Origin: a virus | Direction: 5' to 3' (one strand) | DNA length: 23,057 nucleotides | IMG/VR virus record: IMGVR_UViG_3300032053_000549 | Coordinates: 1 to 23,057 of that record | Shown here: positions 792 through 21,681 of the stretch, in pieces | Position numbering within the stretch: the first letter of the stretch is position 1 | How the letters are laid out: the number at the start of each line of letters is the position of its first letter | Notes under the pieces: generated by a model | Database searches by the model: none | Told to the model about the DNA's origin: nothing | What the model saw: the letters and a program-made list of their open reading frames with translations, nothing else | Position numbers and translations under genes: made by a program

Positions 792-1274
792 TTATCCTTC
801 ACTTCTCTCTAACATATCAGCATCAAATACTAACATATTATCTGTAAGTTTTAAACGATTAATTAAATCCCCGTATTCCCCTACTGCTGATACTTGTATT
901 ATAATAAAGTCTTGCAACAAAATTAACACTTTTTTTGAGATTTCCATAGAAGAAGTTTTCTCATATTCTTCTAGTAAGTCTGCTTCCATTTGATAAGCTA
1001 ACTCCAGAGCGTCTCCAATGCCTGCTACATCGCTTTTAACAGGGTCTAATGATTCTACGCTAAGTTCACAATTCATGTCGTTCATAAACTGTTCTAACTT
1101 ATTATAATGAGTTCTTTCATCTAAAGATTCACCTAAGAAAAACTTCTCAGCACCGAAGTAACCAAGAGTCTTCATTCTATTAGTAAGGTGTTGATAAACA
1201 TGAGAAGCAGTTAATTCTAATTTACCAAACTTGTTTAATTCTTTTTCTTCTATTTCACTAAGTAATTTTTCCAT
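792..1274 (-). CDS. Ferritin-like protein with intact dinuclear ferroxidase residues
   Basis: This 160-residue protein aligns by eye with bacterial ferritin over nearly its whole length as four helices. Helix A carries KLELTASHVYQHL with E20. Helix B carries GAEKFFLGESLDERTHYNKL with E53 and H56. Helix C carries LAYQMEADLLEEY with E97. Helix D carries LLQDFIIIQ with Q127. These match E17, E50, H53, E94 and Q127 of E. coli FtnA in order and spacing, so both iron sites of the ferroxidase centre look retained. The third-site acidic residues near Q127 in FtnA (SEQHEEE) are replaced here by IIQVSAV, so that site is probably lost. Expected activity is Fe(II) oxidation, perhaps with iron storage or peroxide scavenging. 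A Dps or rubrerythrin relative is the main alternative. It lies between two large virion-type genes with 11-base gaps on both sides. Confidence 0.75.
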   Translation of the reverse strand: MEKLLSEIEEKELNKFGKLELTASHVYQHLTNRMKTLGYFGAEKFFLGESLDERTHYNKLEQFMNDMNCELSVESLDPVKSDVAGIGDALELAYQMEADLLEEYEKTSSMEISKKVLILLQDFIIIQVSAVGEYGDLINRLKLTDNMLVFDADMLERSEG

Positions 1275-1285
1275 TGTTATTTATT

Positions 1286-4200
1286 TTATTTACAACCTTG
1301 TGTTTTAATTTCTGCTTGTTCTGCAATTGTTTTTAAGTATTGGTCGATAATATTTTTTCTTGATATATTATCTTGAGGTGCAGCACTTTTACTTAATGTA
1401 TTTGGCCCATAAAAAGATTTAGCATCATAAATGACATAAAATGGATCAACATTTTCATTGCCAATTATATGATTTATAACTTTAACTCCTTTCACATCAG
1501 GATTAGAATCTTGAAAATCTTTAAACAAACTCATTGCTGCTCCTGGAGAATCTTTTAAAGAATTAGTATCATCATACTCAGTTTCTGGACTTCCTCCTAC
1601 GTATGCTCCACCTTGTGGCGTAGCCTTGCCCATTTGAGGATTATTAAACTTAAATCCTTTAGCTACTAGTATGTCATACATTGCCTTTTGAGACATGTTA
1701 GCATCAACAACTATAAAATCAGAATCTTTAACTTCTCCTTTAATTGGATTACCGTATTTCTTAACAAAGAATGGTGTAGTAGTAGAGGCTGCATTTAAAC
1801 CATCTCCAAATTGACTAATTTGATCTTTACCTTTTTGGAAGTCACTAAAATTAAAATCTTGAGGATTAACATTTGTATGGTGGTAAACAGTAACAATATT
1901 AGAAACACCGATAGAACTACTTTCTAAAGCAGCTAATTCATCAGTAAGTTTTTTCTTAGCTTCTTCATATTCTAGTTCTAATGCATAGTCAGCATTTACT
2001 CTAGCTGCAGGATCTCCAAACATTGTTTTCATAAAGCCTGCTTTAGCAAACTTATCTTCTACCGCTTGTTTATCTTTTTCATATTTAGCATCTAACTCTT
2101 CTAGTTGTCCTTTTATTATTATGATTTTATTTTCACTACTGATAAAAGGAGTTTCTTCAGTAACTCCAGTTTCTTGAGCTACAATAGCTTTACGAAGAGC
2201 TAAAAAATTTGACGGCATGCCCGCTGTAAAAGCAGGTAAATCCATTAAGAAAATACCATTATGATATGCGCCTATTCTAGTATTGGCATCTGTTATTTCT
2301 ACAGTGTTGCCCTTAGAATCTTTCCAAGGAATAGTTTCTTCTAATTTAAACTGTACATATTTAAACTCAGCTTTTAGTTCTGCATTAGATAAAAACTCAG
2401 GAGAATTTAAAAGAGCAGTATCTGCTTTTTGTGCAGTATCTCTTTTTATAAATCTACCTGTAGCAGGATCTCTAGTAAGTTTTCCACCTTTTATTTCTTT
2501 ATCGTGAGTTACTCCTATAATTGCTGTAGGATTTACTTGTTGTCCAGGTGCAAAAATTCTTTCTAGTTTATTTAAGGATTGCTCTAGTTGCTGTTCTAAA
2601 GTTAGTTCTTCTTGAGGTACAGGATTAGGTTGAGAAGAATCTTGTTCGTCCGCAAAATCTAAACTTTGATCTTTAACAGATTCTTCTGAAGAATTAGCTG
2701 CCATTAATTTAGCAAATTCTGCAACAATTGCTGGGCCTATCTTAGGGTCTTCTACTAAGTTTTCTCTTACTTCAGAAACAGTATCTCCTATAACAATATT
2801 TTTGTCTAATAAACTTTTTCTTATTATAGCAAATAATCCTGGCTTACCTTCAAGTACTTTTAAAATTTCAGTAGGACTAACTAGAAGAATTAGAGAACTT
2901 AAATCTGCTACTTGAGAAGCATCTTGAGGAGAATTTTGATTAATCATTGCTACTACTTCTGCATATGCTAAATCTGCTTCTCTCTTAGTTTGTGCATTTA
3001 CAATAGGAGTATCGCCAGTAATAGACTTTTCATCCATAGAATTTTTAGTAGTTCTACCTGCTGTCTTAGCATTTTTAGCAGCATTAGCAACTTGTTCTAG
3101 TACTTGCTTGTGTGCCTCTCCTACATAATGCTCTTCTAATAATTCGTAAAATTTACCAAATTTCTCTGCACCCGATTTAGTAAACAGCATATTGTACATA
3201 GTACTTAACTGTGCTTTTTTTACTTTTATCTTTACTAAGTCTTGTAGAATAGGAGCAACTTCTTTAGAATGTAAATTATACCCAACTGGATCTTCAGATT
3301 TCCAATCTTGCATTGCAGCTTTGTATAATTCTTTAGCAGAAGTAATCATCTCTGCACTACCGTCATCTTTTCTTACTCCTGTTATTCTTCCTATAATATT
3401 TCTAAATACAGTAGGATTTATTTTACCGTCAGTTAAGTCTTGAACTTCTGACTCCAGAGATTTCTCTCTTTCACTAAAGTTTTTATTAGCTGAATGTAAA
3501 TATATCATCTGCTCTTTTAGGGCCCCTGTTATATTCTTTGGATCTTGTAGGCCTTTATAATCTTTTCTTAAAAAATCTACTAGTACTTTAGTGTCATTGA
3601 AAAGAGCGTTTACTTCTTTAGTTGCCTTAATAACATTCTTAGTTTCATTCCTAACTTTATCTAAAGATTCTTTACGAGTTTCTTCAGTAAAGTCTTTTAC
3701 TCCTTTAGTAGCAAACTGATCGTTAAAGTTAGCAAGAGGTAAAGCTTGAAAAGCATCTAAGTCTTGAAAAATAGTGTCCTCTAATCCTAGTTGTATTCTT
3801 GTAGATACAAATGAATGCATTGAAGAATGTTCTGAATTCTTAAATCCATACTTATCCCCTGCTGCTAATGCTGCATCTTGGTCTTCTTGAGTAGTTACCC
3901 CACGGGCCATGTTATCATAGTTGGCTTTTAGTGCATCTTGGGTAGAATTGGTATTCTGGTATTCAGCGTTAACTGCATCTTGGGCCCATTTTTGTTTAAG
4001 TTCTTTACGAGCTTCTCTAGCTCCCCCGTAAGCTGCCCAACCTCTTTCTAATTTACCTGTTTCTTTATTAACTCTCATAGGAAGACGTAGTCCCACCATC
4101 CCCATTAAGAATCCAATAGCCATTGAATCTTGTCCTTCAGTTGACCCTGCATAGTTTCTAGCTGCAGTATTCATAGCTGATAATAATCCAATAGAAGTTT

Positions 4201-5722
4201 CTCTAGAATTTTTAGTATATTTTGCAGTATAGTAATCCGCTAATCCATGTTCAAGAACTCCTTGAGAGAATTCTTCAAATCCTTCAGTAACTCCTGACTT
4301 TACCATTGCACCTCCAACAGCAGCTGTTCGACCCCATTTTCCTAGTACTTCTGATCTAGCTTCTCTTTGACCTGCTTTATTAATAACAGTTCCTGTAGAC
4401 CTTAAAGGACTTAATCTTGACAATGCTTGATTAACTTTATATCCTCCTGCAAATATCTTAGGAAATTGCATCATATTGGAAAAGCCTACTAACGGAATAT
4501 TAGTAAACCACGCATACTCAGAAGCGTCACCTGCTTTTTGTTTGTATAGCGCCATCTCTGCTTCTGTAGGAGGCTCGCCATTTAACTCACCGTGCTTTGC
4601 TAGTAAACTTTCTAGTGTGCTGTCATAAGTATCTCTAGCTATTAGAGAAGATTCATATCCTGCACTTCTTACCATAGAAGTAGCTGTTCCTAAAGTAGCT
4701 CTATATTTCTGAGAAAGTACTGCAACTTGTTTGGCTTTTTGATAATCAGTTAGAGTTTCTAATCCTCTAAGTACTTTCATCCCTTTAGGAAGTAGTACGT
4801 TAGTTCCTTTTATTCCTAAAGTTCCTAGTTCACTAGCTCCTCTTGCAAATGTTCTAGTAGCTTGGGCTCCTAATCTAGCTGTATTTGCTACTAATGCTGT
4901 ACCACCTGTCACTGCTCCTAAAGGAACTGCAAGCATTTCTGTGATAATAGCTCCTGCAATAAAGGAAACTGCAGGCGCAATATCAGCATTAAGAGATTTC
5001 ATTGGGTGAGATACAAATCTAGAGAAGAATCCTTTCTGTTCTCCATTTTCATCTATATCATAATCTGAACCTCCGTATACTGCAAATTTATTATTAATTC
5101 CTTGATCCATAGTCTCCCATGCATCAAACATTCCATTGTTAAAAATATTTTGAGCATCCCAAGTAAATAAACCTTTTCCTAATCCATATACTAAAGGTAT
5201 TAAAGAAGAGACAGCTACTGCAGTATTCCCAATTAATTTAGTAGCAGTGTTCCCTGCTTCGGCTAGAAATCCTTGATTCTCGTCTAAATCATCTAAGAAT
5301 TTATCTACACGTTTATCGTATAATTTTTCTTTATAAGCTGCATAATCTTTTATCTCATGATTAAATCGGATACCATATTGATCTTGACCCATTAATTTAG
5401 TCATTCGAGACCCGTGTTCATTTAAGAACTTAGCTCTTTCATTAGGGTCTCTGATTCCTGCAGCTAAATCTACAGGAGTATAGAGCATTGCTGCTCTAGG
5501 ATCTACTGTAAAATCTGTATCTAAGATTGCAGCACCTGAACTTACAGATGCAACGTTACCTATTTTCTGAAGGAAGTCTTCTTGTGCAGTTTTAGGTGCT
5601 TTATAAACATCCGCAGGTTTACTTCTAGGAATTTTTGTATAATCATGTCCACCGCCATCTGTTGCTCCAGGTTCTACCCCTGTGTCTATACCTTTTACTT
5701 TAATAGGTTTTTCGTCTTCCAT
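1286..5722 (-). CDS. Large virion or ejected protein (1478 aa) with C-terminal ADP-ribosyltransferase-like domain
   Basis: The N-terminal part (1-150) is polar. Two long hydrophobic, Gly/Ala-rich stretches follow, at about 159-186 and 247-285, and a shorter one lies near 530-548. They could insert into a membrane or line a channel. The middle (about 550-1050) is mostly charged helix. A mixed alpha/beta part and a helical linker precede the end region. Residues 1279-1445 look like an ADP-ribosyltransferase of the polyvalent-protein type: VYHHTN with candidate NAD-binding histidines H1281/H1282, then DFNFSDF, then FGDGLNAAS followed by FFVKKYG. It lies downstream of the 981-aa gene across a 32-base gap holding a promoter-like element. 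I do not recognise the N-terminal 1200 residues. An internal or ejected virion role is inferred from size, hydrophobic segments and position. Confidence 0.75.
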   Translation of the reverse strand: MEDEKPIKVKGIDTGVEPGATDGGGHDYTKIPRSKPADVYKAPKTAQEDFLQKIGNVASVSSGAAILDTDFTVDPRAAMLYTPVDLAAGIRDPNERAKFLNEHGSRMTKLMGQDQYGIRFNHEIKDYAAYKEKLYDKRVDKFLDDLDENQGFLAEAGNTATKLIGNTAVAVSSLIPLVYGLGKGLFTWDAQNIFNNGMFDAWETMDQGINNKFAVYGGSDYDIDENGEQKGFFSRFVSHPMKSLNADIAPAVSFIAGAIITEMLAVPLGAVTGGTALVANTARLGAQATRTFARGASELGTLGIKGTNVLLPKGMKVLRGLETLTDYQKAKQVAVLSQKYRATLGTATSMVRSAGYESSLIARDTYDSTLESLLAKHGELNGEPPTEAEMALYKQKAGDASEYAWFTNIPLVGFSNMMQFPKIFAGGYKVNQALSRLSPLRSTGTVINKAGQREARSEVLGKWGRTAAVGGAMVKSGVTEGFEEFSQGVLEHGLADYYTAKYTKNSRETSIGLLSAMNTAARNYAGSTEGQDSMAIGFLMGMVGLRLPMRVNKETGKLERGWAAYGGAREARKELKQKWAQDAVNAEYQNTNSTQDALKANYDNMARGVTTQEDQDAALAAGDKYGFKNSEHSSMHSFVSTRIQLGLEDTIFQDLDAFQALPLANFNDQFATKGVKDFTEETRKESLDKVRNETKNVIKATKEVNALFNDTKVLVDFLRKDYKGLQDPKNITGALKEQMIYLHSANKNFSEREKSLESEVQDLTDGKINPTVFRNIIGRITGVRKDDGSAEMITSAKELYKAAMQDWKSEDPVGYNLHSKEVAPILQDLVKIKVKKAQLSTMYNMLFTKSGAEKFGKFYELLEEHYVGEAHKQVLEQVANAAKNAKTAGRTTKNSMDEKSITGDTPIVNAQTKREADLAYAEVVAMINQNSPQDASQVADLSSLILLVSPTEILKVLEGKPGLFAIIRKSLLDKNIVIGDTVSEVRENLVEDPKIGPAIVAEFAKLMAANSSEESVKDQSLDFADEQDSSQPNPVPQEELTLEQQLEQSLNKLERIFAPGQQVNPTAIIGVTHDKEIKGGKLTRDPATGRFIKRDTAQKADTALLNSPEFLSNAELKAEFKYVQFKLEETIPWKDSKGNTVEITDANTRIGAYHNGIFLMDLPAFTAGMPSNFLALRKAIVAQETGVTEETPFISSENKIIIIKGQLEELDAKYEKDKQAVEDKFAKAGFMKTMFGDPAARVNADYALELEYEEAKKKLTDELAALESSSIGVSNIVTVYHHTNVNPQDFNFSDFQKGKDQISQFGDGLNAASTTTPFFVKKYGNPIKGEVKDSDFIVVDANMSQKAMYDILVAKGFKFNNPQMGKATPQGGAYVGGSPETEYDDTNSLKDSPGAAMSLFKDFQDSNPDVKGVKVINHIIGNENVDPFYVIYDAKSFYGPNTLSKSAAPQDNISRKNIIDQYLKTIAEQAEIKTQGCK
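1388..1888 (-). other. ADP-ribosyltransferase-like domain (residues about 1279-1445 of the 1478-aa protein)
   Basis: The segment shows the usual order of an ART fold seen in polyvalent phage and plasmid proteins. It has an opening strand with VYHHTN, an aromatic F-x-x-F turn, and FGDGLNAAS before FFVKKYG, which resembles the G-x-G-[IL]-Y-F-[ST] core followed by an A-x-x-Y-type helix. A strand FIVVDANMSQ and the later FYVIYDAKSFYG complete it. The usual catalytic Glu or Gln cannot be placed with certainty, and the aromatic of the YFT triplet is replaced (LNAAS). The domain may therefore be a divergent active enzyme or a degenerate fold. Confidence 0.5.
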
Positions 5723-5754: not shown

Positions 5755-8700
5755 TTATTTTCCTGCAGGGACAATACCTACAGATTGCATAGCTCCCGCA
5801 ATATTTTGGAAAGCAGGTACAAACGTTTGAGTATCCCAGCCTACAGTAGAATGTACTAAGTCAGATTCTGCTCCTGTTCCAAACATAATGTCTAAAGACC
5901 TTAACTGTGTTGGTAAATTCTCAGTAGCACTTAAAGTTTTTCTTCCTATTAATTCATAAACATCTGGCTTACCTGCTCCCATTACTGTAACTTTACTAAT
6001 ATCAGCAATGTGTTCTCCTCCTTGTACACTATAAGTAATAGTAAATCCAGAGTAAGTTCCATCAGGTTGTCCATTAGGACCTAAATTTTGCTGTAATGCT
6101 GCAGGAGCTTGTGTAATTTCTGTAGTAGTATAATTATTATTTTTAGCATGTTCTAAACGTGATGAAAGTTCAGAGTATTCTTTTCTTGTATTAGGAGTAC
6201 CTATTAAACTTACTTGTGCAAAGTTATTTACACATTGAAATAATTTTTCTCCATTTTGAGTTCCTATAGCCATACTTGCGTAATCAACAAAAGTTTTTTC
6301 TGCTGCTACAGCAGGATTTGCTGCAGAAGTTACTCCAGGAACTGCAACATATATATCTAAAGGATTAGCAGTTCTCCAAGCAGCAACTTCTGCCTCATTA
6401 GGTATGTAATCCTCAGCTTTTCCTTTTTGAATTCTTATTTGATTTGCTATATAAGATTTAGAACTTTCTACACCCAATTGATTTTCTCTTTTTAAAACAT
6501 AATGTATAATAGGAGAACCGTCTTGATCATTTCCTGCCCATTTTCCTCCGTCAGTTACGTAATTAGCTAAATCAAAATTGTTGCTATCAAGTAGGGGAGT
6601 AGCATTTCCTGTAAAAGGATCTAGGTTTACTCTAACAATTCTATTTTTACCTCCTTGATTATCTAGTGCATGTTTTGCTAGTGTTTCAGAAGTTCCTCCT
6701 GTTATAGTACTAAGACTTTTATCCATAGTTATTTCTACAGGAGTTGTAGCTGATGCTAAATCTGTGCTAAGATTAGCTCTATAGTTACTCATTAAAGTTT
6801 CTGCAAAAACATTTGTACTAGTTTTATGGCCTTCTTCTACTATTTGTCGTCTATAATCTTCTGTGGCTTTCGTTATAATAGACATAGCTTCTTCTTCTGG
6901 CATATCAGAAATTACATTTCCTGCCCAATCTGAATGAGTACTATAATCTTTCTGTCTTTCTACTAAACGGTCTTGTGCATATTTAGCAGTATTTGCATCT
7001 ACAGTTTGTTTATCTTTTTCTGAAGTAAATATAATTTCTTCAAACTTATTATTATTTTTAGTATTTAAATAATTAACATTGTCTTTAAATAATATATCTA
7101 GGAATTTAGGCAAATCTTTTCCTGCATCTACTTCCCATATTTTCTTAATATCTGGGTCTGCTTGTACATCTCTTTCAATTATATTAAATAATGTCTTACC
7201 TTCATTATCTAATGCAATATCTGTCTGAGTTTTATTTTTATTTAATGCATCTAATTTAGCTATTTCTAGTCTCTTATCTTCAGGAGTAGGAGCTTTACTT
7301 ACAGCTATTTGTTGTAAAGTTATTTGTGCATTTAAATCTTTTATTTCTTTTTCAGAATCTTTTAATCGTCTACTTACTATAAATAAATCTTTTCCTGTAT
7401 TAAGAGCTGATCTAGCAGCTGCAGAACCTGTCTCAATCATCTTACCATCAGGTCCTGTTACAGTAAATTGTTTTAATCCAGGAATTTTATCAGGAGTCAT
7501 CCATTTTAACTCTTCATAAGTATCTTTTTTGTATTTGTATTTAATTTCATCATCAGCATCCGAAGTTGCGCCTCCTGTGATACTTACCCCAGGTTTAATA
7601 GTTGCTGTGGAGGTACTTACAGTAAGTGGAGTTATTTCATCTAACTTCTTAACTTTAGCAGTATAATCAGGAGATGCTGCGGTAGTATTTTCTTCAGTTT
7701 TTACACTATATAAATCTACAAGATCAGATGCCGCCATTCCTAATTGTCCAAATTTATTAGAAGCTGCTTCTTTGTAATATTTTTCTGCTAATTTTTGAGT
7801 GTTACCAGTTGTCTGTGCTTCTGCTATTTCAGTAGCTTTTTGTGCCATTTCGGCTTTAAGAGTTGCTATTGCTTTAGGGTCTTTAGTATAAGCAAGTTGA
7901 TTTTGAAGTATACTCATAGTACCTTCTAAGACTCCATTTTGAAACTCTTGCCCTTTAGGTCCTTGAGAACTAGCATAAAAACTATAGTCTGCATCTTCCT
8001 GCACCCAATCTTTATACTTATCTGAAGTAGCTAACATACGTTGTATTTCTCCTGCTACTTGATTTAAATCTCTATAATCTATAGTTGTTTTTAATTTAGT
8101 AGTACTTCCATCTATATTTACAGTCTCGTTTCCTGGAGTTTCTGCATGTTGTAGTACCGCCATTCTAGCTAACTCTAAAGATTCTTTACGCATGTCTTCT
8201 TCCATATTTTGCATACGTGGTTGAAGACTAATAGCAGTGTAATCTTTTTCTCCCTGATTATAGCCTGTACCTTTAAACTCTCCTAGAGTCTTCATTTTCC
8301 AAGTATCAAAATCTCTTTGAGAAATATCTCCTTTTTCTACTCTAGCCTTATGCTCGGTTTCCATTTTTTTATAACCTTCATAGTTACTCTTAATAGAAGA
8401 TAACTCTGGGTCTTTATTAAACAACTTGTTTAAGTCAGCAATTTGTTGTGTAGCTTGACGATAGTTTTTAGAAGTACTAAGATTAGAAGCTATTTCGTTT
8501 CTTTTCTTCTCTAATAACTCCATCAATTCTTTACTACGAGGATCATCTTGATTTAATCTACTCATTTCAAAATCTGCATTAGCAGCAAGACTTTTGGCTG
8601 TCTCAAGTTTCTCAGACATCTGAGATAGAGGTTGCGCAAAAGCCTCTAATCCTAAAGGCTTGTATTCAGTTTTTAATGGTGTAGAATATGGAGTTATCAT
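5755..8700 (-). CDS. Large helical virion protein (981 aa), function unknown
   Basis: The first 150 residues are strongly helical and charged, with heptad-like stretches (for example KELMELLEKKRNEIASNL), so an N-terminal coiled coil is likely. The opening PYSTPLKTEYKPLGLEAFAQ is of a kind I associate with crAss-like virion proteins. A second helical part around residues 435-520 is rich in Lys, Asp and Glu. The C-terminal third is more beta-like and Gly/Thr-rich, ending in IAGAMQSVGIVPAGK. I see no enzymatic motif, signal peptide or clear membrane helix. The ATG at 8700 follows the stop of the 1279-aa gene by two bases (TAATTATG), which argues for this start and for coupled translation. By position it is probably a cargo or internal virion protein. 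Confidence 0.75.
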   Translation of the reverse strand: MITPYSTPLKTEYKPLGLEAFAQPLSQMSEKLETAKSLAANADFEMSRLNQDDPRSKELMELLEKKRNEIASNLSTSKNYRQATQQIADLNKLFNKDPELSSIKSNYEGYKKMETEHKARVEKGDISQRDFDTWKMKTLGEFKGTGYNQGEKDYTAISLQPRMQNMEEDMRKESLELARMAVLQHAETPGNETVNIDGSTTKLKTTIDYRDLNQVAGEIQRMLATSDKYKDWVQEDADYSFYASSQGPKGQEFQNGVLEGTMSILQNQLAYTKDPKAIATLKAEMAQKATEIAEAQTTGNTQKLAEKYYKEAASNKFGQLGMAASDLVDLYSVKTEENTTAASPDYTAKVKKLDEITPLTVSTSTATIKPGVSITGGATSDADDEIKYKYKKDTYEELKWMTPDKIPGLKQFTVTGPDGKMIETGSAAARSALNTGKDLFIVSRRLKDSEKEIKDLNAQITLQQIAVSKAPTPEDKRLEIAKLDALNKNKTQTDIALDNEGKTLFNIIERDVQADPDIKKIWEVDAGKDLPKFLDILFKDNVNYLNTKNNNKFEEIIFTSEKDKQTVDANTAKYAQDRLVERQKDYSTHSDWAGNVISDMPEEEAMSIITKATEDYRRQIVEEGHKTSTNVFAETLMSNYRANLSTDLASATTPVEITMDKSLSTITGGTSETLAKHALDNQGGKNRIVRVNLDPFTGNATPLLDSNNFDLANYVTDGGKWAGNDQDGSPIIHYVLKRENQLGVESSKSYIANQIRIQKGKAEDYIPNEAEVAAWRTANPLDIYVAVPGVTSAANPAVAAEKTFVDYASMAIGTQNGEKLFQCVNNFAQVSLIGTPNTRKEYSELSSRLEHAKNNNYTTTEITQAPAALQQNLGPNGQPDGTYSGFTITYSVQGGEHIADISKVTVMGAGKPDVYELIGRKTLSATENLPTQLRSLDIMFGTGAESDLVHSTVGWDTQTFVPAFQNIAGAMQSVGIVPAGK

Positions 8701-8702
8701 AA

Positions 8703-11700
8703 TTATACTGTTTTATTGTCTTCTTTTTTCTTTTTTCTAGCAGCCTGTGAAGCAGCAAATGTTTTTTGCAATCCTTGTAGGTAAGGAATGTTTTCATAAG
8801 TATAATTACCTTCACCTGCCATTGCATTATAATCACCTGCTAAAGCATTTTGAGTTTGCATATTGCTGTAATCTTTTATACCTGTTATAGCTTCTTTTTG
8901 AGCTTCTGCTTTAGCATTTTTCATCTGTGCTTCTAGTTGCCACTTCATTAATTTAGCATCTACTTTATTCTTATTATTATATTTAGCAGCTTCTGTTTTA
9001 GATAGATTATCTGCATTTTCTTTAGCTGCTAATATTTCTGCACGGGCAAGAGCATTCTGATGACTTAAATTGCCTAAGTTAGCAGCAACTGCTCCTGGAT
9101 TACCCATGTTTCTTAATGCTGCATAAGCATGTGCTGCTTCTTCTTGTGCCGCTCGTAACTGTGGATTAACATTTTGTAAGTAAGGGTCATATTGCGCAGC
9201 CATGTTTTCAGGCAAAGGCATTTGTTTAGCCAAGAATCCTTGATAAGCGTTATAAGCAATAGGTGCCATATTAGCAGCAAATGCTCCTAAACCTTCTCTA
9301 TTTTCATAATTAGACTTTACAGTATCTTGTCCTGTTTTAAATTCTTCTATAGGAGTATTTAAACCTTTACTGCCAGGAGTCATATAAGGTAAATTAGGAT
9401 TACCTACTGCCCCTGTAGTTAAGCCTGTATTTCCTTGATACATAGAAGGAAAATCTGAACTAAACATTTGAGAAGGACCTGATATACCATCAAAGTAATG
9501 ATTCATATTACCCCCCATAGCAAAGTTATTACCTTCTTGATTTTTAGCCATATATTCTGCTCGTTCTCTTGCTAATCTTTGTGGAGTAGTTTCTTGTATT
9601 GCAGGTCCTGCATTTGCAATTCTTGCGACACTTGCAGCTCTCTCTGCATTAACAGCATCTCTTTTTGCTATTGCTTCAGGAGAATTAGCTGCTTCTGCTA
9701 CATATTGAGGATACTGATAATTAGCTACCATAGCATTTCCATTCATAGTATTACCTCTTTCAGGCATTGCTATTCCTTGATTAGCTGAAGTAAACCCCGC
9801 AGTACCTCCTGTAGAAATTGCAGGCGCAGGAGTAGGTAAATACTCTAAAGGTTTTGCAGGGTCAATAAAAGTCCCCCCACTATACCCAGTGCTTGCGTTT
9901 GATTTATATATAGCCGTTGGGCGGAGCCCTGTTGATTCATCAATTTTATAAGCTCCTGAAGCATCAAAAGCATCACGATATACTGGATCTTTTGGATCTA
10001 TAAGAATTTTAGTATTATGGATACTTTTATTACCTGCTATTGTCTCATTATATAATTTTAATTGAGCAGCGTAATTAGGATTTAATGTTCCTTTGCTAGT
10101 AGTGCTTGCTGCAGCTGTGGTAACAGGAGGATCTCCAGGTCCGTCAAACATTCCTCCCATTGCATATAGATTAGTTAATGGTTGCCCCATAGGACCTGCA
10201 CTGTTTTTAAAGTTGGGGTATGCAGTAGAGAATTGATGTCCTCCATATTTTGCAAAATTAGAATTAATATCATCTTGTGGTTGTTGATTATAACCTGCTA
10301 TACCTGCTTGAACAGCACTATTAATCATATTTTGTTGTTGTTGTTGTGCAGCTAATTGTTGTTGGTTATATGCTTCTTCTTGAGCTTTTTGATCTGCGAT
10401 ATTTTGTTTAGCTTCTGATTCTAAAGCATTTACATATCCTTTACCTGTAACATCTTTCCAACCTCCTTCATAACTTGCTCTAGTTGTAATTGCTTTAACT
10501 GGGTCAAATAAACTACCAATAATTGCACCCGCTTGAGCCCCTTTTTTATTTTCTAAATTTCCTTGTTCGTCTGTTCTTTCTAATTTTGTTCTAATTGGTT
10601 TACCAATCATATTTCCTACTCCAATAGCAGCTCCTACAATAGGATTAATAGCTCCTGCAACTCCTTGAACAGTTCCATCTAAAGATTCAGACTTAGTTCT
10701 CATAGAAGCGTTAGGGTCTTTAAAATTATTATAAGTCTGTGTTGCTCCTCCTGCTATAGCAGTTCCTATCTGAGCATATTGACCTCCAGATAATCCATTA
10801 TTTCCAGCAGCTTGTTGAGTATTTAAACCATTAGTAGTAAGTCCTTGATTATTTAAACCATAATAATTTCCAGAATCATTAAAATTAGAACCTGGCATAG
10901 TACCTCCACCATAAAACTGTCTAGATAAATTTCCCCCGTATTCATACATTTCTCCTCCGCACTTGTACGACATAGGACCTCCGTATTGCATAGGCATTTG
11001 TGGAGCACCTTGTTGCTGTGCCATCATTTGTTGCATCATTGCAGGATCCATAGGAGGTTGTCCTTGACCTTGTTGTTGCATCATCATCATTTCTTCAGGA
11101 GATGGTTGTCCTTGCTCCATACCTTGTTCCATTCCTTGAGGAGGCATTCCTTGAGGTTGATAAGATTGTGCTATTTGTTCTAATGCATTAGGATCAAGAG
11201 CTTGAATCTCTGCTAGTTTCTTCTCTACAGCTTTTTGTTTAAATGCTTCTTGAGCATTCATTAGATTATCTAAATCTCTTTGAATAGCATTAGTTTCTAT
11301 AGTATCGTTTTCTCTACGAGAATCTTTTCTATTAGCAATTTTAGAAGCTTCAGCAAAATCCTTATTTACAAAATTAGGCTTAAGATTAAATTCTTGTGCA
11401 GTTTCTTTATCTATTTTTAAAGTCTTGGAAAATATATAATCGGCAGCATTTAACTTAGTCTCTCCTTGTTCTACTAAGTTAGTTCCTCCGTCAGGAGCTT
11501 GTCCTTGAGGTATTCCTCCTAAAGGACTTTCTTCGTGAGAACCCCCTGCATTAAACTCAGTAAGTTGCCCCATGGGACCCCCTGCTTCAAAACGCTTATT
11601 GTGCATATTAGTCCTAATTTTATTTTGCACTTCTTTAGGTAGTGCATGAAATCCTGAGTTATTTAGAGATCCTCCCATAGCATTAAAAGTTGATTTACCG

Positions 11701-12542
11701 CTACCGAACCATCCTTTAGGCGCGCTCATTTGCATGGCCTCGCTTGCAGGAATAACTACAGGTGCAGAATTAGTAGGTATGTAATCGGCTTGGGCAGGAC
11801 TAGTTGAAATTTCTGGTCTTACTCCAAGTGTGTTTGTTTCTATTAGTTGTATTGGTTTAGTAGGTAATGCTTGTACTATCTCAGGAGTTTGTCCTGCTTC
11901 AGAAGTACCTAGTTTTACTTTAGATGTAGTAGCGCCAAAACTTTTAGGTCTTGTGTCTCCAGAAAGAGGACTCTTTTCTTTAGGCAATACATAATTATTA
12001 TAAAGAGTTGTTCCGTAATTAGTAGCAGTTGCATAACCTGCTTTTTCTAATCCTTTAGCAAAGTCTTTAGCAGTTGTTGCATTTAATGCTCCTTCGTATA
12101 TAGGATTTGTTTCTAAAAATACTCTATGAGCTTGAAAGCCGTCAAAGGCATTATCAAAAGCCATAAATTTATTCTTAGTATTTACTTTTTTTCCATCACG
12201 TACTTCAGGTGTATCTGTAAGAGCGCCTACTCCTACGTTAATACCTCTAGCAATTAATCTATCTCTAACAGCTTGAGTATGAGCTTGTATTCCAAAATAA
12301 TTATGATTAGCGCCCATATGAACACCTCCTCCAGATTCAAATTGCCATTGTCCAGCAACTACTTTAGCTTGCTCAGGGGAATTACCTACAGCCTCTGCTA
12401 ATAACTTAGCTTGATTATAAGTTTGAGGTTCAGATATTCCTAAGCTAAACCATTGTAAAGCTTTCTCTCTATTTACTCCTGGCCTACTTAAGTAGGCTTC
12501 TACGTTAGGCGGTAAATCTCCGTAAGTTAAATCTTCTGGCAT
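8703..12542 (-). CDS. Large virion protein (1279 aa) with N-terminal GH73/FlgJ-type glucosaminidase domain
   Basis: Residues about 42-186 look like an endo-beta-N-acetylglucosaminidase: QWQFESGGG with the candidate catalytic acid E69, NHNYFGI, then KFMAFDNAFDGFQAHRVFL (125-143) and GYATATNYGTTLYNNYV (169-185). These are the hallmark blocks of the FlgJ/LytD family, which cuts peptidoglycan glycan strands. The rest is not a known enzyme. Residues 284-355 and 520-550 carry aromatic-x-x-Gly-Gly repeats, 455-520 is Gln/Met/Pro-rich, 590-680 is Gly/Ala-rich with membrane-like stretches, more GG repeats lie near 763-800 and 1006-1022, and 1120-1230 is Ala-rich helix. The C terminus is basic (ARKKKKEDNK). 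The protein is probably carried in the virion and opens the cell wall during infection; the separate endolysin would serve exit. Confidence 0.8.
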   Translation of the reverse strand: MPEDLTYGDLPPNVEAYLSRPGVNREKALQWFSLGISEPQTYNQAKLLAEAVGNSPEQAKVVAGQWQFESGGGVHMGANHNYFGIQAHTQAVRDRLIARGINVGVGALTDTPEVRDGKKVNTKNKFMAFDNAFDGFQAHRVFLETNPIYEGALNATTAKDFAKGLEKAGYATATNYGTTLYNNYVLPKEKSPLSGDTRPKSFGATTSKVKLGTSEAGQTPEIVQALPTKPIQLIETNTLGVRPEISTSPAQADYIPTNSAPVVIPASEAMQMSAPKGWFGSGKSTFNAMGGSLNNSGFHALPKEVQNKIRTNMHNKRFEAGGPMGQLTEFNAGGSHEESPLGGIPQGQAPDGGTNLVEQGETKLNAADYIFSKTLKIDKETAQEFNLKPNFVNKDFAEASKIANRKDSRRENDTIETNAIQRDLDNLMNAQEAFKQKAVEKKLAEIQALDPNALEQIAQSYQPQGMPPQGMEQGMEQGQPSPEEMMMMQQQGQGQPPMDPAMMQQMMAQQQGAPQMPMQYGGPMSYKCGGEMYEYGGNLSRQFYGGGTMPGSNFNDSGNYYGLNNQGLTTNGLNTQQAAGNNGLSGGQYAQIGTAIAGGATQTYNNFKDPNASMRTKSESLDGTVQGVAGAINPIVGAAIGVGNMIGKPIRTKLERTDEQGNLENKKGAQAGAIIGSLFDPVKAITTRASYEGGWKDVTGKGYVNALESEAKQNIADQKAQEEAYNQQQLAAQQQQQNMINSAVQAGIAGYNQQPQDDINSNFAKYGGHQFSTAYPNFKNSAGPMGQPLTNLYAMGGMFDGPGDPPVTTAAASTTSKGTLNPNYAAQLKLYNETIAGNKSIHNTKILIDPKDPVYRDAFDASGAYKIDESTGLRPTAIYKSNASTGYSGGTFIDPAKPLEYLPTPAPAISTGGTAGFTSANQGIAMPERGNTMNGNAMVANYQYPQYVAEAANSPEAIAKRDAVNAERAASVARIANAGPAIQETTPQRLARERAEYMAKNQEGNNFAMGGNMNHYFDGISGPSQMFSSDFPSMYQGNTGLTTGAVGNPNLPYMTPGSKGLNTPIEEFKTGQDTVKSNYENREGLGAFAANMAPIAYNAYQGFLAKQMPLPENMAAQYDPYLQNVNPQLRAAQEEAAHAYAALRNMGNPGAVAANLGNLSHQNALARAEILAAKENADNLSKTEAAKYNNKNKVDAKLMKWQLEAQMKNAKAEAQKEAITGIKDYSNMQTQNALAGDYNAMAGEGNYTYENIPYLQGLQKTFAASQAARKKKKEDNKTV
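10983..11180 (-). repeat. Gln/Met/Pro/Gly-rich low-complexity segment inside the 1279-aa gene
   Basis: Residues 455-520 are built almost only of Q, M, P, G and E, with short tandem units such as GMEQGMEQGQ and runs MMMMQQQ and AMMQQMMAQQQ. It is probably a disordered linker between the wall-cutting N-terminal half and the rest of the protein. Its simple codon composition also creates a spurious open frame on the opposite strand. Confidence 0.7.
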
Positions 12543-12592: not shown

Positions 12593-15028
12593 TTATAATC
12601 CTTTAGGTTTTTCCTGCCAAGGATTTGATAAAGCTGCTCCGCCTGCTATTCCTGCTGCGGGAACTACCCCCCATACTTTATTAAATAAATTAGCAGCTGC
12701 TTTAGAATTTTTTATTATTCCAGGAAAATCTGAATTTATGGGTGTTCGACCATGATATATTTCATTTAACATATCGGCAGCTTGTTCAGGAGTTATAACA
12801 TCACTAGGAGTTAAATTAAAATGTTTTCTAGTTTCCATTAATCGTGCATGTATTTCTGTCGGATCAGCTAAATAATCGAGATGTTTTTGATAATCTGGAT
12901 ATTGTTCTTTAAGGCTATTAATATGGTCAAAATCTATTGCATCTTTAATAATTTTTTCTTGATCTGTTAATTTTAAAGTTTTTTCTTTTAACCAATCATG
13001 TCCTAATTCATGTACTCCTGTACTTAAACGTTGTTCAGGACTTAAAGTTCTTGAAATCCAATTACCGTGTCTAGTATGTGCAGGAACAGTAGCTAATGCG
13101 TTAGGATAACTAGAATTAAAGATATCAGGAGAAGGCAAAGGGGGCGGAGAAAAAGGGCCATTTGGAATAAAAGTATTAGTATTTTTTTCAAAAGGCAGAA
13201 ATTCTCCAGGAATATCATGGTGAGTATAACTAACTCCTAAATTTCCTTTATGAATATTAGTGGTATTTAACTGTGGATATTCTACAAATTGATTTAATAA
13301 AGGGTATTCTTGTAATCTTCCTGAAGGATCGTATCCACTAGAAAATTTAATTGCTTCTTCTAAATTATGTTTAGCAACAGGGGAATCAGCAACTTTACCA
13401 AATACAGACTGATTATCAGATAATTTTAAACCTTCTTTATAACTATTTAATATTTTTTCTTGAGTAGCAGGATGGTTTACCCAATCTTTTGTCCAATTTT
13501 CAGCTTCTCGTAATGTTTCTTGTCTACCAGGAGTTTTACTTGCTATGACTTCATTTATAAAAGAAGACTGGGGTAATTTTCCTTCTATGTTTATTAATTT
13601 ATTAGCAGAACTTTTTGCTAATTGATTACCCATTAATGGTGCACCTTTTAATCCTAATAAACCTAATCCTAGTTCTGTTGCTCCTTGTACATAGTTACCT
13701 TCACCATATTGTCTTCCTGCATGACCTCCCCAATTACCAGGATTAAATACATTAACAACATCATTAATACTTAAGCCTCTAGTTTGTCCAGTAGCTTTTA
13801 ACCATCTATCATAATCAGGACCACCATCTCCTAGTCCTTCTGCCATACCAGGTATATAAGCTTGATCCCCCATTATTAAGTTTGCAGCCATTAACAAAGG
13901 TTGATTTAAAGCAGCATTAGTTCTATCTAATACTTTTTCACCAAAAGACATTTTATTATACTTATCCCATTGTTCTTTTTCAAATTTAGCTTGTGCTTCC
14001 TTTTCAGCTTTTTGTTGTGCTTTATATTCAGGAGACTCCATGTATGCTGCATTTTGTATAGCTGCTAATGCTTGATCAGCAGTTACATCTTTTGTATTAT
14101 CTGCTACAACAGGTTTTAATTTTGCTTGATAATTAATTGGAGTATTTTTATCATACTTTGAATTAGGTTTTGTTGCTGCAGGTTTTTGAAATAAAACATT
14201 TGTAGCTCCAGCATCAGGATGTGTGAAAGAAGTTGGGTCTATGTATGCAGATTTACCTACTAAAGGTTTAGCTTGTGCATTTAATAATGCTGTACGTTTT
14301 CCAGTAGGGTCTTTTACAGGAACAAATCCATTTGTATGTTCTGTTCTTATTTCCCAACCATTTGCTCCTTTCTGATATTCAGCACCTGGTCTTCCTGCGT
14401 AAGTATATATTTGTCCTCCTCCTGCGTAAGAATTATTTAAAGCTCCTCCGTTTGCATATACTAAGTCTTTACCTTCTCCTGACATCTCAGGTGTATTAGA
14501 CATTGATAATATGCTTCCTCCCGTGCGAGTGACGTGATCGAGTGGCATGTACATTTGTTGTCTAGTAGAAAGATTATCTCCTAGAGTACCTCCAAAGTTA
14601 TATACAGCGGGATACTGCTGAGGGGAGGAAGCGTAGACACTGTTGTGAAGGTTATTTCCTCCTTGTTTAAAACTGTCTTCAGGCAATGAATAATTACCTT
14701 GGAACTGTCCTCCGTTTTCATAACTATTATTAATCTTTTTTTCTTGGGCCAACATTTCTTTAGTAGGAGCTTTTCCTGAACCTTTGTTAGCTCTAATATT
14801 ATCCCATAGACCTTTTGGAGAGTAAGAACCATCTGCTCTTTTTAACATGCCTCCAGTAGCATAGTAATCTCCTAAAGCAGATGCATACACACTGTTTAAT
14901 AAATTACCATTAATATCTCTATCGTGTAGAGGACCTCCGTCTGCAAATGGAAGAGCAGTAGTATCTCTAAAGATTGGAGTACCTGGGAAGTTATAATAAG
15001 TCGGTATATTTTTAGCTAACTTTTTCAT
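12593..15028 (-). CDS. Large virion-type protein (811 aa) with GG-motif array and C-terminal HExxH metalloprotease-like domain
   Basis: The N-terminal quarter (about 28-207) carries repeats of an aromatic-x-x-Gly-Gly motif, several joined to NS-Y or NSVYAS units (YATGG, YENGG, YNFGG, YANGG). Residues 330-360 form a charged helix, and 443-470 is a Gly/Leu-rich hydrophobic stretch. The C-terminal part holds STGVHELGHDWL, an HExxH zinc site with H673, E674 and H677, followed 48 residues later by ADPTEIHARL, where E725 is a plausible third zinc ligand. This is a zincin-like peptidase signature of the kind found in phage and polyvalent proteins; the substrate is unknown. Possible roles are virion protein maturation or cutting a host protein after ejection. 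The ATG overlaps the stop of the muzzle gene by one base (TAATG). Confidence 0.78.
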   Translation of the reverse strand: MKKLAKNIPTYYNFPGTPIFRDTTALPFADGGPLHDRDINGNLLNSVYASALGDYYATGGMLKRADGSYSPKGLWDNIRANKGSGKAPTKEMLAQEKKINNSYENGGQFQGNYSLPEDSFKQGGNNLHNSVYASSPQQYPAVYNFGGTLGDNLSTRQQMYMPLDHVTRTGGSILSMSNTPEMSGEGKDLVYANGGALNNSYAGGGQIYTYAGRPGAEYQKGANGWEIRTEHTNGFVPVKDPTGKRTALLNAQAKPLVGKSAYIDPTSFTHPDAGATNVLFQKPAATKPNSKYDKNTPINYQAKLKPVVADNTKDVTADQALAAIQNAAYMESPEYKAQQKAEKEAQAKFEKEQWDKYNKMSFGEKVLDRTNAALNQPLLMAANLIMGDQAYIPGMAEGLGDGGPDYDRWLKATGQTRGLSINDVVNVFNPGNWGGHAGRQYGEGNYVQGATELGLGLLGLKGAPLMGNQLAKSSANKLINIEGKLPQSSFINEVIASKTPGRQETLREAENWTKDWVNHPATQEKILNSYKEGLKLSDNQSVFGKVADSPVAKHNLEEAIKFSSGYDPSGRLQEYPLLNQFVEYPQLNTTNIHKGNLGVSYTHHDIPGEFLPFEKNTNTFIPNGPFSPPPLPSPDIFNSSYPNALATVPAHTRHGNWISRTLSPEQRLSTGVHELGHDWLKEKTLKLTDQEKIIKDAIDFDHINSLKEQYPDYQKHLDYLADPTEIHARLMETRKHFNLTPSDVITPEQAADMLNEIYHGRTPINSDFPGIIKNSKAAANLFNKVWGVVPAAGIAGGAALSNPWQEKPKGL
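14408..14944 (-). repeat. Array of aromatic-x-x-Gly-Gly / NNS-Y repeats in the 811-aa protein
   Basis: At least seven copies lie in residues 29-207: ADGGPL, YATGGML, YENGGQF, FKQGGNL, YNFGGTL, YANGGAL and YAGGGQI. The unit L[LH]NSVYAS occurs twice (about 43-50 and 127-134), and NNSY twice more (about 100-103 and 198-201). The spacing between copies is irregular, so this looks like a short linear motif used many times and not a structural tandem repeat. Confidence 0.7.
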
Positions 15029-18000
15029 TAGAACATTTGTACATCGTAGTAAGACATTAAATTATTCATTATGAGCTGCTGGTTACTTTTATTGTCAAAG
15101 TATAAAGTTACAATAAAATATGAACTTCTCAAACGTCCTTGATTATTAGCTGTATTAATATCTCTAGGAATTTTAACTCTCCATTTGTCAAATTTTCTTT
15201 TAATTCTTCCTGAAGAGAAAGGAATTATTCCCGTATCTTGTACTTGATTCTGTATTCTGAATCCTGTTATTGTACGATTTCTGTCTACTACCTTAGCATC
15301 ATCTCTTACAATAGAGTTATATTCTAAAGTTCTTAATACTTTATTTATATCAGCATTAGGATTAATTACTAGGGTAATAGAAGCTTCTTCTATGTTTCCA
15401 TAGAATTCTCCCCAAGGACCTATATTATGAGTATACACACTTAAACTTTCTGGCGTACTTCCAGGCCCAGAAGTCATTAATATATCGCCATTATCCATCC
15501 ATATTTGCGGAGTGGCAGAATACATAGAAGAAAATTCTCCTACTAGTTCATCAAATACTATAGACTTATCTAAAGTAGTTATATCAAAAGTTACAGAGTT
15601 AGATAAAATAAGGTGAAGATTAGTATCGTTATCTTCACCTGTTGTTACTTCTGTGATTATTTGTACATAATATCCTGGGCTTATTTCTAGTATATCTCCT
15701 GGATAATAAGTAGTATCTTTATCTATTTTTGGGATGTCAATTCCTGAGCCTAAAAAAGTAAAGATAATTTCATCATTAATTTTATCTCTACCAATGGCTA
15801 TACCTCTTTTTAAGATAGCATTATCTCCTCCGTCAGTTTTTCTACTAAAAATTGCATCAGGTAAACTTTGTAGAAAACTATGTATTCCTTTTTCAGATAA
15901 AGGATTTAATCCTGATTCTCCTCTTGCTCCTATAGCTATACTAAATAATTTTCTATGAATAGCATCAAAGAAATAAATAGCAGTATTAGTTGCTTTAACT
16001 CCGTATTGATGAATACTACCGTGTTCTTTAGAGATATATAAATGTTTTCCAAATCCTTGACCTGTACCTAATTGCGTAGGAATACCATCGGTAGTAGTAG
16101 TCATGGCTCTAGGATTGATAGCATAAGTTCCTATTCCTTTGTCTTGAATAAAATATACTAAGTCTTTCCAATTAAGTATTTTATTAATAGGACCGTAGTC
16201 ATCTATATCATAGTAATCATTGGTTCCAAACTTTGTCCAAGAATCTATTAATTCTTCATTGATTTTTACTTTGGATAAATAAGCTCGTATATCATTTCCT
16301 CCACAGTCTCCGTCATTTAAAGGACTAACTCCAAAAGCCAAGTCTTCATTTTCTCTAGAATATGCTGTGTTGTATGCATACATGTCTGTACCTATCCCAT
16401 ATCCGTAAGTAGTATTATTATTTTCTTGTCTTAATACTACTTCTTCTACACTTGTAGTTAAGTACTTAACTCCTGTTTTAAGAGTGGTACCGTGTGCAAG
16501 GTCTATATTGATAGTAGATTCCATCGTATATAATTCTGTTCTAGAAGAATTAGATCGGTAATCTCTGGTATTAACTTTATAAAATACTGTATTTAAAGAC
16601 ATAGTTGCTGTCTGCAGTGTGACAGTATTTAAGAAAATATCTCCTCCAAATACTCTAGGACTTGTGTTTACTTTATCTATTACAGGAGAGGCTATTTGGA
16701 ATATATTTGTTTCTAGTACAGATTGATCAAATCCTCCGTAAACTTCTAATTTAGGGATTACAGTATCTACAATAGGAACTGCAATATGTCGTGTTAAGAT
16801 ATTTAAAGGACCCACTGCATTAGGAGTATTAAAATACTCTGTAAAAGGAACTGTAGGTACACCACTTCCTGTAATAGGGTCTAAAGAAATTTTCTCTATA
16901 TTCCCAAATATATTACTTCCTCCTTTAAATAGAATAGATTTACCTTGGGCAGTTGATGGATTTTTTTCTGGATTATTTAAATCGGAATCTACTCCTGCTC
17001 CTCCTGTACTAAAATTATCAGCAGCATAATAATTCCTCATCCACTCCCCAGTATTAATTTCTAAAGAAGATTCTGGAGTATTTTTACCGTAATCGTTATC
17101 ATCATCCATTTTAATGTAACGATTTTTTTTCCATTTTCTAATATTTTCTATGCTGTTAAAAGAAACAGGATCGGTAGTAGTAGCATTATTCCGTTTATCT
17201 ATGCAAGTATCTGATAAATCTATTCCGCTTAAATCTTTATCAGGAACTGATATATCTCCTTGTAGATTAAAGTCTGTATAAGCACCTGTAATTAATAAGC
17301 AAGGAGCTGTAGTAAAAGTAGTTGCTATATCTTTTACTGTGTTAAAATCGTAACTTATTTCTGGAGAAAAGTATCCTAAGCAAGTTGGCTGTATAATATA
17401 ATCTGCATGATCTCCATGCACACTATTATTTAATGTATTAAAAGTACCTGGATTATAAAAAAGTAACGGTGCTGCGCTTACAGGATAAACAGGCATTAAA
17501 TGATAAACATTAGTATCATTATTTATTCTAAGATCAAAGTCTATACCAGAACCTGGAGTTGTTATAGGATTATGCCAGAAAGGTTTTATAATTCCTTGAG
17601 TTAATCTTCTAGTGTCGGCAATGTTTCTTTTTACTCTTACTATTTGGTAACTAGTAATAATTGCTAGTAACTCAGGCGGAAAATTAAAAGTAAACTCTAT
17701 ACCCATAGCATAAGCAGTAGTTTTTGATGATGCTACATTACTAAGAGGAAAATAGTCAGTTCCTGATGAATTAGGAGTAGCATCTTGTTCAGAGATATCA
17801 GGGAATTTAATGTCTCCAATATATTCTACAAAAGAAGCTTCTCCTTTTACGTTATAAAAGATTATACCAAATCTATAAGTTTCTCCGCGTTTATAACCTC
17901 GCAACAATCCTGAGATAAAAGGAGAGGCATTGTTGGGGTACGTAGTATTGTTATAAATGTAACCGTCTTGTAAATCATGCGCATATGTATCAGGTACGTT

Positions 18001-20419: not shown

Positions 20420-21035
20420 AATAAAATACTTTACGGTTTGGGTCTTTTACTATCTTAGCTATTAATCTAGAATATTGTCTAGAAGCTTTGAAAGTATAAA
20501 AACTTTTAAATTTTAAATTAGCAGTTACCTTATCCCAATAATGCTCATAAAACTCTTGGTCTGTATGATCGTTCTCGTGATATATAACTCTCTTATTATT
20601 TATATTTACTATTTCATCTCTAGTTAATCCTGGGTATTTAATATGCCAGAATTCCCAAGTTGCTTGCCAATTAGGTTTAAGACTTTTAGATCTTTCTCCA
20701 TTAACTTTAAAAAAATTAAGATGACTACTGCGTATTCTTAATTTTCCTACTTTAGTAATCTTTAATTCTAAACCTGTAGCGACAATTGCTGTGCTATAAG
20801 TTTCTAATAGCTCTTTTACAAATGCATTATAAGTAGGTTTATCTACTAGTGTTTCTTTGGCATTCTTTTGATAAAATGAAAAAAAAGCAGTTTTCTTAAT
20901 TCCTCCTGCAAGTTTTCCTTTACCTCTTTTTAAATAATTATTACTGTCCTCCACTTTGTTGTTGTTGTGGTGCTCCTCCGCCTCCTTGGCCTGGAGAATC
21001 TGTTCTTTGGTCTTGTGCATTATTAGCATTATCAT
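20412..21035 (-). CDS. Basic protein of the tail-assembly block (207 aa), function unknown
   Basis: The N-terminal 35 residues are charged and low-complexity (KEAEEHHNNNKVEDSNN), followed by a Lys-rich stretch and then a folded alpha/beta part with many Trp, Tyr and Phe (for example WQATWEFWHIKYPG). The first ATG lies 95 bases inside the end of the preceding gene. It is preceded by AAGGAGG with eight bases between, and no later ATG exists in the first half of the frame, so this start is preferred. ATGs six and fifteen bases later would change little. By position it would match one of the small tail or neck proteins of crAss-like phages. No motif allows a firmer call. Confidence 0.7.
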   Translation of the reverse strand: MIMLIMHKTKEQILQAKEAEEHHNNNKVEDSNNYLKRGKGKLAGGIKKTAFFSFYQKNAKETLVDKPTYNAFVKELLETYSTAIVATGLELKITKVGKLRIRSSHLNFFKVNGERSKSLKPNWQATWEFWHIKYPGLTRDEIVNINNKRVIYHENDHTDQEFYEHYWDKVTANLKFKSFYTFKASRQYSRLIAKIVKDPNRKVFYYG

Positions 21036-21681
21036 AAGGGAAACCTCCTTTTTGAATCAACTGTTGTAATATGTAAGGTTTAATATATGCCCACATCCAT
21101 TGATTAATAGGATAAGGGTCTGTTGGTAACCAACAACTATGATTAGTTTCGCAATTTAAGAAATCTCCTAAAGATGTTGGGTCTTCAAAAATTCCTCTAA
21201 CTGTAATATATTTAAGCATCATATTACTAGGATTCTTACTAGTAACATACATGTAACCTCCATATAGAAAAGCATATACAGAATTCTTAGTTGTTCTTCC
21301 GTTGCCTACGTAAGGCACTCTAGAATAATCTATTAGTAAAAATCTAGGCTGCATTATATCTGCGGAACCCACTGAAACTATTCCTTTAGTAAAAAAGAAT
21401 TCTATAGTATTAGGTATTTTCTTTTTAGTTCGTAGTACTTGGCATCCCGTAGGAACTGTTATGCAACAATCAATAGGACTAACAGGTTCTAATTCTAGGC
21501 AGTTTAGATCCTGAATAACATAAGGATCAATGCTTCTGTTTTTATTATATTCATTCCTTAGCCATAGGGATCTTTGCTCGTTAATTAAGTCTGTATAGAA
21601 CTCATACGAGTAAGATGACTCTATGGAGTTAATCGCAAGAGCTTCATCTATTTGTGCCTGTAAATCTTGTAATGATAACAT
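20941..21681 (-). CDS. Probable tail ring / head-tail connector protein (246 aa)
   Basis: It begins with a helical segment (SLQDLQAQIDEALAINS and TDLINEQRSLWLRNEYNK) of the type seen in phage connector and ring proteins. A cysteine-containing beta-rich core follows (CCITVPTGCQVLRTKKKI), then VYAFLYGGYMYVTSKN and a WMWAYIKPYILQQLIQ helix. The last 30 residues are a disordered Gln/Gly/Pro tail (GQGGGGAPQQQQSGGQ) whose codons overlap the start of the next gene. Size, layout and position two small genes before the other ring protein suggest a ring or adaptor protein of the crAss-like tail (ring protein 2 type). This rests on recalled gene order. The start lies five bases after a promoter-like element, so the message may be nearly leaderless. 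Confidence 0.62.
   Translation of the reverse strand: MLSLQDLQAQIDEALAINSIESSYSYEFYTDLINEQRSLWLRNEYNKNRSIDPYVIQDLNCLELEPVSPIDCCITVPTGCQVLRTKKKIPNTIEFFFTKGIVSVGSADIMQPRFLLIDYSRVPYVGNGRTTKNSVYAFLYGGYMYVTSKNPSNMMLKYITVRGIFEDPTSLGDFLNCETNHSCWLPTDPYPINQWMWAYIKPYILQQLIQKGGFPYDNANNAQDQRTDSPGQGGGGAPQQQQSGGQ

Follow-up and report, generated by a model that had tools for sequence, protein, structure and literature searches.

A ferritin gene within the virion-cargo cassette of a crAss-like phage

Mass spectrometry has identified gp45, gp46, gp47, gp49 and gp50 of phiCrAss001 as virion cargo (PMC10172136). The corresponding genes of phi14:2 bear the label 'structural protein', from MS/MS, in the reference annotation. 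Phage polyvalent proteins have been argued to be packaged and injected (Iyer et al. 2017, PMC5512222), in a paper that makes no mention of ferritin. Ferritins are known from giant viruses (PMC7136201), and passages of a study of Bacteroides gut phages (Gratiaviridae and others) describe Dps and Mn-catalase, proposed to raise reactive-oxygen tolerance (PMC8008677). A sequence-only reading of the DNA analysed here had called a virus-borne ferroxidase unexpected. This statement needs tempering, as viral ferritins and Dps are known; what remains without a report that we could find is the position in a cargo cassette. Our searches of the open-licence PMC literature found no paper describing a Crassvirales ferritin or one encoded next to a virion RNA polymerase (RNAP) or polyvalent proteins, and none placing the viral ferritins of the databases in a virion-cargo cassette beside a virion RNAP.

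The window, i.e., the whole stretch of 23,057 nucleotides that was analysed, is by its gene content a 23-kb fragment of a Crassvirales genome: genes for the muzzle protein, cargo protein 1 and the virion RNAP follow each other in the conserved order, the window holding only the N-terminus of the polymerase and the DxDxD motif being seen in relatives. All genes described here lie on the minus strand. They include a holin (22519–22959; Pfam Phage_holin_4_1, 6e-10), a probable CHAP/NlpC-type lysin (22011–22529; Pfam CHAP, 4e-5, below the curated cut-off), a virion structural protein (20941–21681; phrog_9863 'virion structural protein', 3e-17) and the Crassvirus muzzle protein, homologous to gp44 and to phi14:2 gp082 (15028–19317; Pfam crAss_MUZ, 1.2e-144; phmmer, 1e-66 to gp082). 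An 811-aa protein of the tail/cargo block (12593–15028), placed by its ORF and synteny only, is followed by the homologue of cargo protein 1, gp45 (8703–12542; Pfam crAss_CARG1, 1e-25; phmmer, 3e-19 to gp45), which has a glucosaminidase (peptidoglycan hydrolase) domain near its N-terminus (Pfam, 7e-14). A 981-aa protein (5755–8700) occupies by synteny the position of cargo protein 2, gp46, and has no detectable match to gp46 or to any Crassvirales reference. The 1478-aa protein encoded at 1286–5722 is a homologue of gp47, the RNAP-associated virion cargo protein (phmmer, 5e-17); an ART-like domain suspected in its C-terminus was not supported. At the end of the window, positions 1–780 encode 260 aa, beginning with MAC (Cys3 at 772–774), of a protein that runs off the window and that is homologous to phiCrAss001 gp50 and phi14:2 gp077. 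We assign this fragment as the N-terminus of the virion RNAP fusion through its similarity to the N-termini of homologues in the nearest relatives (66–95% identity); it is the full-length copy of one relative, G002 (3067 aa, with a catalytic DFDID motif), that was compared with gp50 (E=5e-105). Set against phiCrAss001 and phi14:2, the gene order therefore reads muzzle (gp44), 811-aa protein, gp45, 981-aa protein (gp46 position), gp47, ferritin and RNAP (gp50), and G002 completes it with a gp49 homologue after the RNAP. The muzzle, cargo protein 1 and holin genes and the weak lysin match bear out the phage late-gene block proposed from the sequence alone, and the large virion genes said to surround the ferritin are indeed homologues of virion cargo proteins.

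The gene at 792–1274 has an ATG start and encodes a 160-aa product with one cysteine, which had been described as ferritin-like. The HMM search against ferritin-like families suggested along with that description placed the product above the curated cut-off of Pfam PF00210 (Ferritin; E=9e-11, 42.3 bits against 24.5). A phmmer search of PDB sequences matched animal and bacterial ferritins (best 6e-8), and a family profile of the phage ferritin reached 8e-18 against PDB ferritins. The AlphaFold2 model, computed from an alignment of 44 sequences (the window and viral loci), has a mean pLDDT of 95.7 and folds into a four-helix bundle (helices A–D, residues 7–37, 40–66, 86–108 and 114–143) with a long B–C crossover and a short fifth helix (147–159). 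In Foldseek searches of the PDB the best match was the Vibrio ferritin 3qz3 (TM 0.91), followed by the ferritins of Pyrococcus, Thermotoga, Helicobacter and E. coli. Both approaches thus return the four-helix ferritin bundle and not another fold, and the ligands are kept in relatives. Taken together, these data show that the ORF encodes a true ferritin; profile, fold and conservation rule out a chance resemblance. Pairwise dN/dS between the window gene and its relatives was about 0.07–0.22, values that are approximate since dS approaches saturation in comparisons with the distant relatives. They indicate that the gene is under purifying selection and rule out a dead gene or a decoy.

Other families of the superfamily were considered. 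Dps proteins have an inter-subunit site and no fifth helix; the phage protein has this helix, and its family profile gave no match to E. coli Dps. Bacterioferritin was discarded because Q127 and A130 stand in place of the helix-D E127/H130, and the family profile did not match E. coli Bfr. The hallmarks of rubrerythrin are a second ExxH motif in helix D and a rubredoxin-type Cys site. PF02915 does match the phage protein (28.3 against 22.8 bits), but helix D reads Q127-x-x-A130 and there is only one cysteine.

The five ligands that had been matched to FtnA in order and spacing were recovered by profile alignment, in which E20/Y27/E53/H56/E97/Q127 fall on E. coli FtnA E17/Y24/E50/H53/E94/Q127. 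We collected 88 phage relatives from IMG/VR, retrieved with family-derived patterns and with identities down to about 36%. E20 is identical in 86 of these, and E53, H56, E97 and Q127 in 87 each, the remainder being gaps. E49 (window numbering) is also identical wherever the residue is present, E133 is kept in 87/88, and position 27 is a tyrosine in 76 and a tryptophan in 11. The register with solved ferritins suggests that the five residues converge on one site. The third-site acids had been described as gone: this is correct for the positions of FtnA E126, E129 and E130, which are I126, S129 and A130 in the window ferritin, and incorrect for that of FtnA E49, where D52 is still acidic (D or E in 59/87 relatives). 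The window ferritin therefore does not carry the FtnA-type three-site set. As a rule FtnA E130 is also included among the B-site ligands, so the ligand set is complete in the H-ferritin sense and not in the FtnA sense. As the third-site acids are mostly lost, the dinuclear site is, as read from the alignments, H-ferritin-like, with a largely dismantled third site.

The gaps on either side of the window ferritin are 11 bp each, and across loci the median gap between ferritin and neighbour is 1 bp. Between the window gene and its neighbours there is no terminator-like site and no strong promoter, promoter-like matches being at chance level. Co-transcription is thus expected, and the ferritin would be made late, together with the cargo proteins, which we consider very probable. 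Same-strand ORFs of at least 800 aa lie on both sides of the ferritin in 64 of the 93 loci in which both neighbours are visible, compared with 1/348 for the other small ORFs of the same loci; since the loci are related and not phylogenetically independent, the figure of 64/93 overstates the sample and is descriptive only. Many independent contigs show this same arrangement, which rules out host contamination or mis-assembly.

The nature of the flanking genes differs between lineages. The gp47 and RNAP homologues are the neighbours in the group of the window. A second Crassvirales group has its RNAP divided between two ORFs, with the ferritin exactly in the split (L017, L019, L021, L026, L028, L032, L033, L149, L151, L152, L159 and L209). 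The final stretch of the upstream ORF matches phi14:2 gp077 residues about 525–1127. The downstream ORF picks up near gp50 residue 1300 and has DFDVD near position 270; its N-terminal leader is of the MAC type also found on the unsplit polymerase fusion. In other lineages the giants beside the ferritin carry LPD38, ART-PolyVal, Zeta_toxin and DarB-like domains of the polyvalent, injected type, and in still other phages the ferritin follows the portal gene, or the portal and a MuF-like head protein. Zeta-toxin-like and ART-PolyVal domains were seen in the giants at L098:1665-7949, L108:8432-12265 and L113:4324-7968. A search for RNAP motifs in the giants of the non-Crassvirales loci gave no convincing DxDxD motif. 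The collections scanned contained no ordinary bacterial relative of the phage-type ferritin and only two contigs from metagenome-assembled genomes (MAGs) encoding it (L067 and L068, Rhodoferax and Zoogloea). One of these, L067, also encodes a giant ORF with a terminal-Cys tail, and both are for this reason probably misbinned phage DNA. Catalogued phages searched for the same ferritin gave only weak matches of 22–26%, in two gut contigs.

A screen of Crassvirales RNAP loci revealed a different ferritin directly downstream of the RNAP in five loci (L165, L167, L169, L172 and L226). The members of this second clade keep the FtnA third-site acids, and the three compared in detail are 25–31% identical to FtnA and 13–27% identical to the window type. 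In a small tree, whose cellular members are FtnA and FtnB only, the five branch with FtnA/FtnB and are separated from the window type (support 0.998). As a separate FtnA-like clade lies beside the RNAP, ferritins appear to have entered the cargo cassette more than once. The gene is also absent from some close relatives: in L140–L145 the gp47 homologue is followed by the RNAP after 32 bp, an empty site, and no ferritin was found anywhere in these partial records. The cultured references phiCrAss001 and phi14:2 have no ferritin gene either. This distribution marks the ferritin as an accessory gene. Nucleotide comparisons point to exchange as well. Compared with L024, the ferritin has an identity of 0.66–0.70 for most of its length and 0.82 at the start; close to its 3' end the value rises abruptly from 0.66 to 0.95, and it is about 0.95 in the next gene. 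Compared with L016, identity is 0.79–0.88 in the ferritin and 0.64–0.71 beyond. Such mosaic identity indicates that recombination has swapped the ferritin allele inside an otherwise conserved frame.

The giants flanking the ferritin (L016–L118) are almost free of cysteine except at the termini that face each other across the gene junctions. A cysteine lies within the last 12 residues of 69/70 upstream giants (0/43 at the N-terminus) and within the first 12 residues of 75/76 downstream giants, and only 21 interior cysteines were counted in about 250,000 aa. The single cysteine of the 1478-aa gp47 homologue of the window is its penultimate residue (1292–1294). The pattern holds in the cultured phages. 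In phi14:2 (L126/L127), gp078 has only C1797, its last residue, gp077 only C3 and C2179 of 2180, and gp076 only C3; in phiCrAss001 (L125), gp47 has only C2339 of 2341, gp49 only C5, and gp50 C5, C1334 and C2404 of 2412. The first protein therefore carries its cysteine at the C-terminus only, the middle one at both ends and the last one at the N-terminus only, which suggests that gp47, gp50 and gp49 could form a head-to-tail chain linked by disulfides or metal. Disulfides have been reported in the phiCrAss001 capsid and tail, and the text of that paper reports none for the cargo (PMC10172136). The ferritin is encoded at a joint of this putative chain and is itself without a terminal cysteine (0/99 ferritins have one in their last three residues), so the possible tag of the neighbouring giants is not shared. 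One might imagine an ordered chain of Cys-linked giants threading the tail, with a virion-borne ferritin controlling iron or oxidant at the joints, where the links form or are protected, and then in the infected cell. We regard this as very improbable; if true, it would mean that the virion delivers an iron/redox enzyme and couples it to the ejection of the cargo.

The best reading of these observations, to which we give a probability of about 0.5, is that of a functional ferritin made late, packaged with the cargo and protecting the DNA and proteins that enter the cell from Fe(II)/peroxide chemistry. The gene would be transcribed late as part of the cassette gp45 - [gp46 position] - gp47 - ferritin - gp50 - gp49. 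In each subunit, the dinuclear site within the four-helix bundle would take up Fe(II), which would be oxidised with O2 or peroxide and stored or sequestered. Oxidation of Fe(II) is highly probable, and assembly into a cage and a benefit to the phage are presumed. Our best guess is that the virion takes up a small amount of the protein along with its cargo, and that this ferritin and the polymerase are ejected together. Early in infection the ejected ferritin would reduce both the free Fe(II) and the Fenton damage suffered by the DNA and giant proteins as they enter, and excess ferritin would do likewise in the lysing cell. Packaging itself is a tentative proposal, with slightly less than an even chance. 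An assembled ferritin 24-mer measures about 12 nm. The constrictions of the tail are below 5 nm (PMC10172136). A 24-mer could therefore not pass the tail without dissociating. The suggestion that the phage infects an anaerobe found no support, as neither aerobic (PF00268) nor anaerobic (PF13597) ribonucleotide reductase was detected in 23 ferritin-bearing records.

Carriage with the cargo is likelier than any single alternative; nearly as likely is a late auxiliary gene acting in the cell only, whose unpackaged product would store iron or limit Fenton chemistry until lysis, the place in the cargo operon merely giving late, strong expression. The late co-transcribed position fits this explanation, which is the usual reading of viral ferritins and Dps, and so do the lack of a terminal-Cys signature and the moron-like behaviour of an accessory, exchangeable gene, with empty sites and an allele swap that left the flanks intact. 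However, a generic moron could occupy many late junctions, whereas two ferritin clades are found repeatedly at the joints of packaged or injected giants, and even inside a split RNAP. The position among virion genes would equally suit a ferritin fold serving as an internal virion or scaffold piece for which iron chemistry is irrelevant. Such a role would not preserve metal ligands, yet the five ligands, together with E49 and E133, show little or no variation even between deeply diverged relatives, and a purely structural function is accordingly very unlikely.

Equally improbable is that the protein withholds iron from competing phages, or supplies it, being loaded during infection and releasing its iron for the progeny or in the next host. 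A ferritin can load iron, packaging is possible, and the Ferrojan-horse idea, in whose spirit this would be, is discussed in phage papers; but the neighbourhood of the gene showed no sign of iron uptake or receptor binding, and nothing specific favours delivery or competition. We retain, at the odds given above, the packaged and protective ferritin.

Phage ferritins have so far been scattered annotations. In the present data, ferritins from two distinct clades are linked to the genes of giants that are packaged or injected, the crAss-like virion RNAP among them, and dozens of phages besides this crAss-like phage carry a ferritin among the genes for such giants. This suggests that control of iron or oxidants plays a part at the beginning or the end of infection by these phages. 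If the ferritin travels in the particle, an iron-oxidising enzyme is delivered with the phage DNA, and iron/oxidant control at the start of infection becomes testable in a defined protein. The terminal-Cys pattern, for its part, offers a possible simple and testable mechanism for keeping cargo in order, present in cultured phiCrAss001 and phi14:2.

With regard to known systems, the window protein shares with the non-haem ferritins (E. coli FtnA, Vibrio, Helicobacter, animal H-ferritin) the same fold, including the fifth helix (TM about 0.84–0.92), and has dinuclear ligands in register with theirs. It differs from them by an identity of about 17–26%, by the loss of three of the four FtnA third-site acids, by a VGEYGD stretch in helix D that is conserved phage-wide and by a restriction to phages in the collections scanned, apart from the two MAG contigs. 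The viral ferritins A0A8D9C9X5 (uncultured marine phage), A0A8S5Q7U4 (Siphoviridae ctrzs15) and A0A8F6UAB8 (Rhinella virus) also have the same fold (BFVD TM 0.83–0.88), at about 20% identity to the window ferritin. The Dps and Mn-catalase of gut phages, as described in the passages cited above, are like it iron/peroxide proteins of the ferritin superfamily, but belong to different families (PMC8008677). Domains of the polyvalent proteins (Iyer et al. 2017, PMC5512222) occur in the giants flanking the ferritin in several lineages, whereas the ferritin is a separate ORF and not a domain. Finally, the window shares with the gp45–gp50 cargo cassette of phiCrAss001 and phi14:2 the gp45 and gp47 homologues and the start of gp50, in order; in contrast to both phages, it has a ferritin inserted between gp47 and the RNAP.
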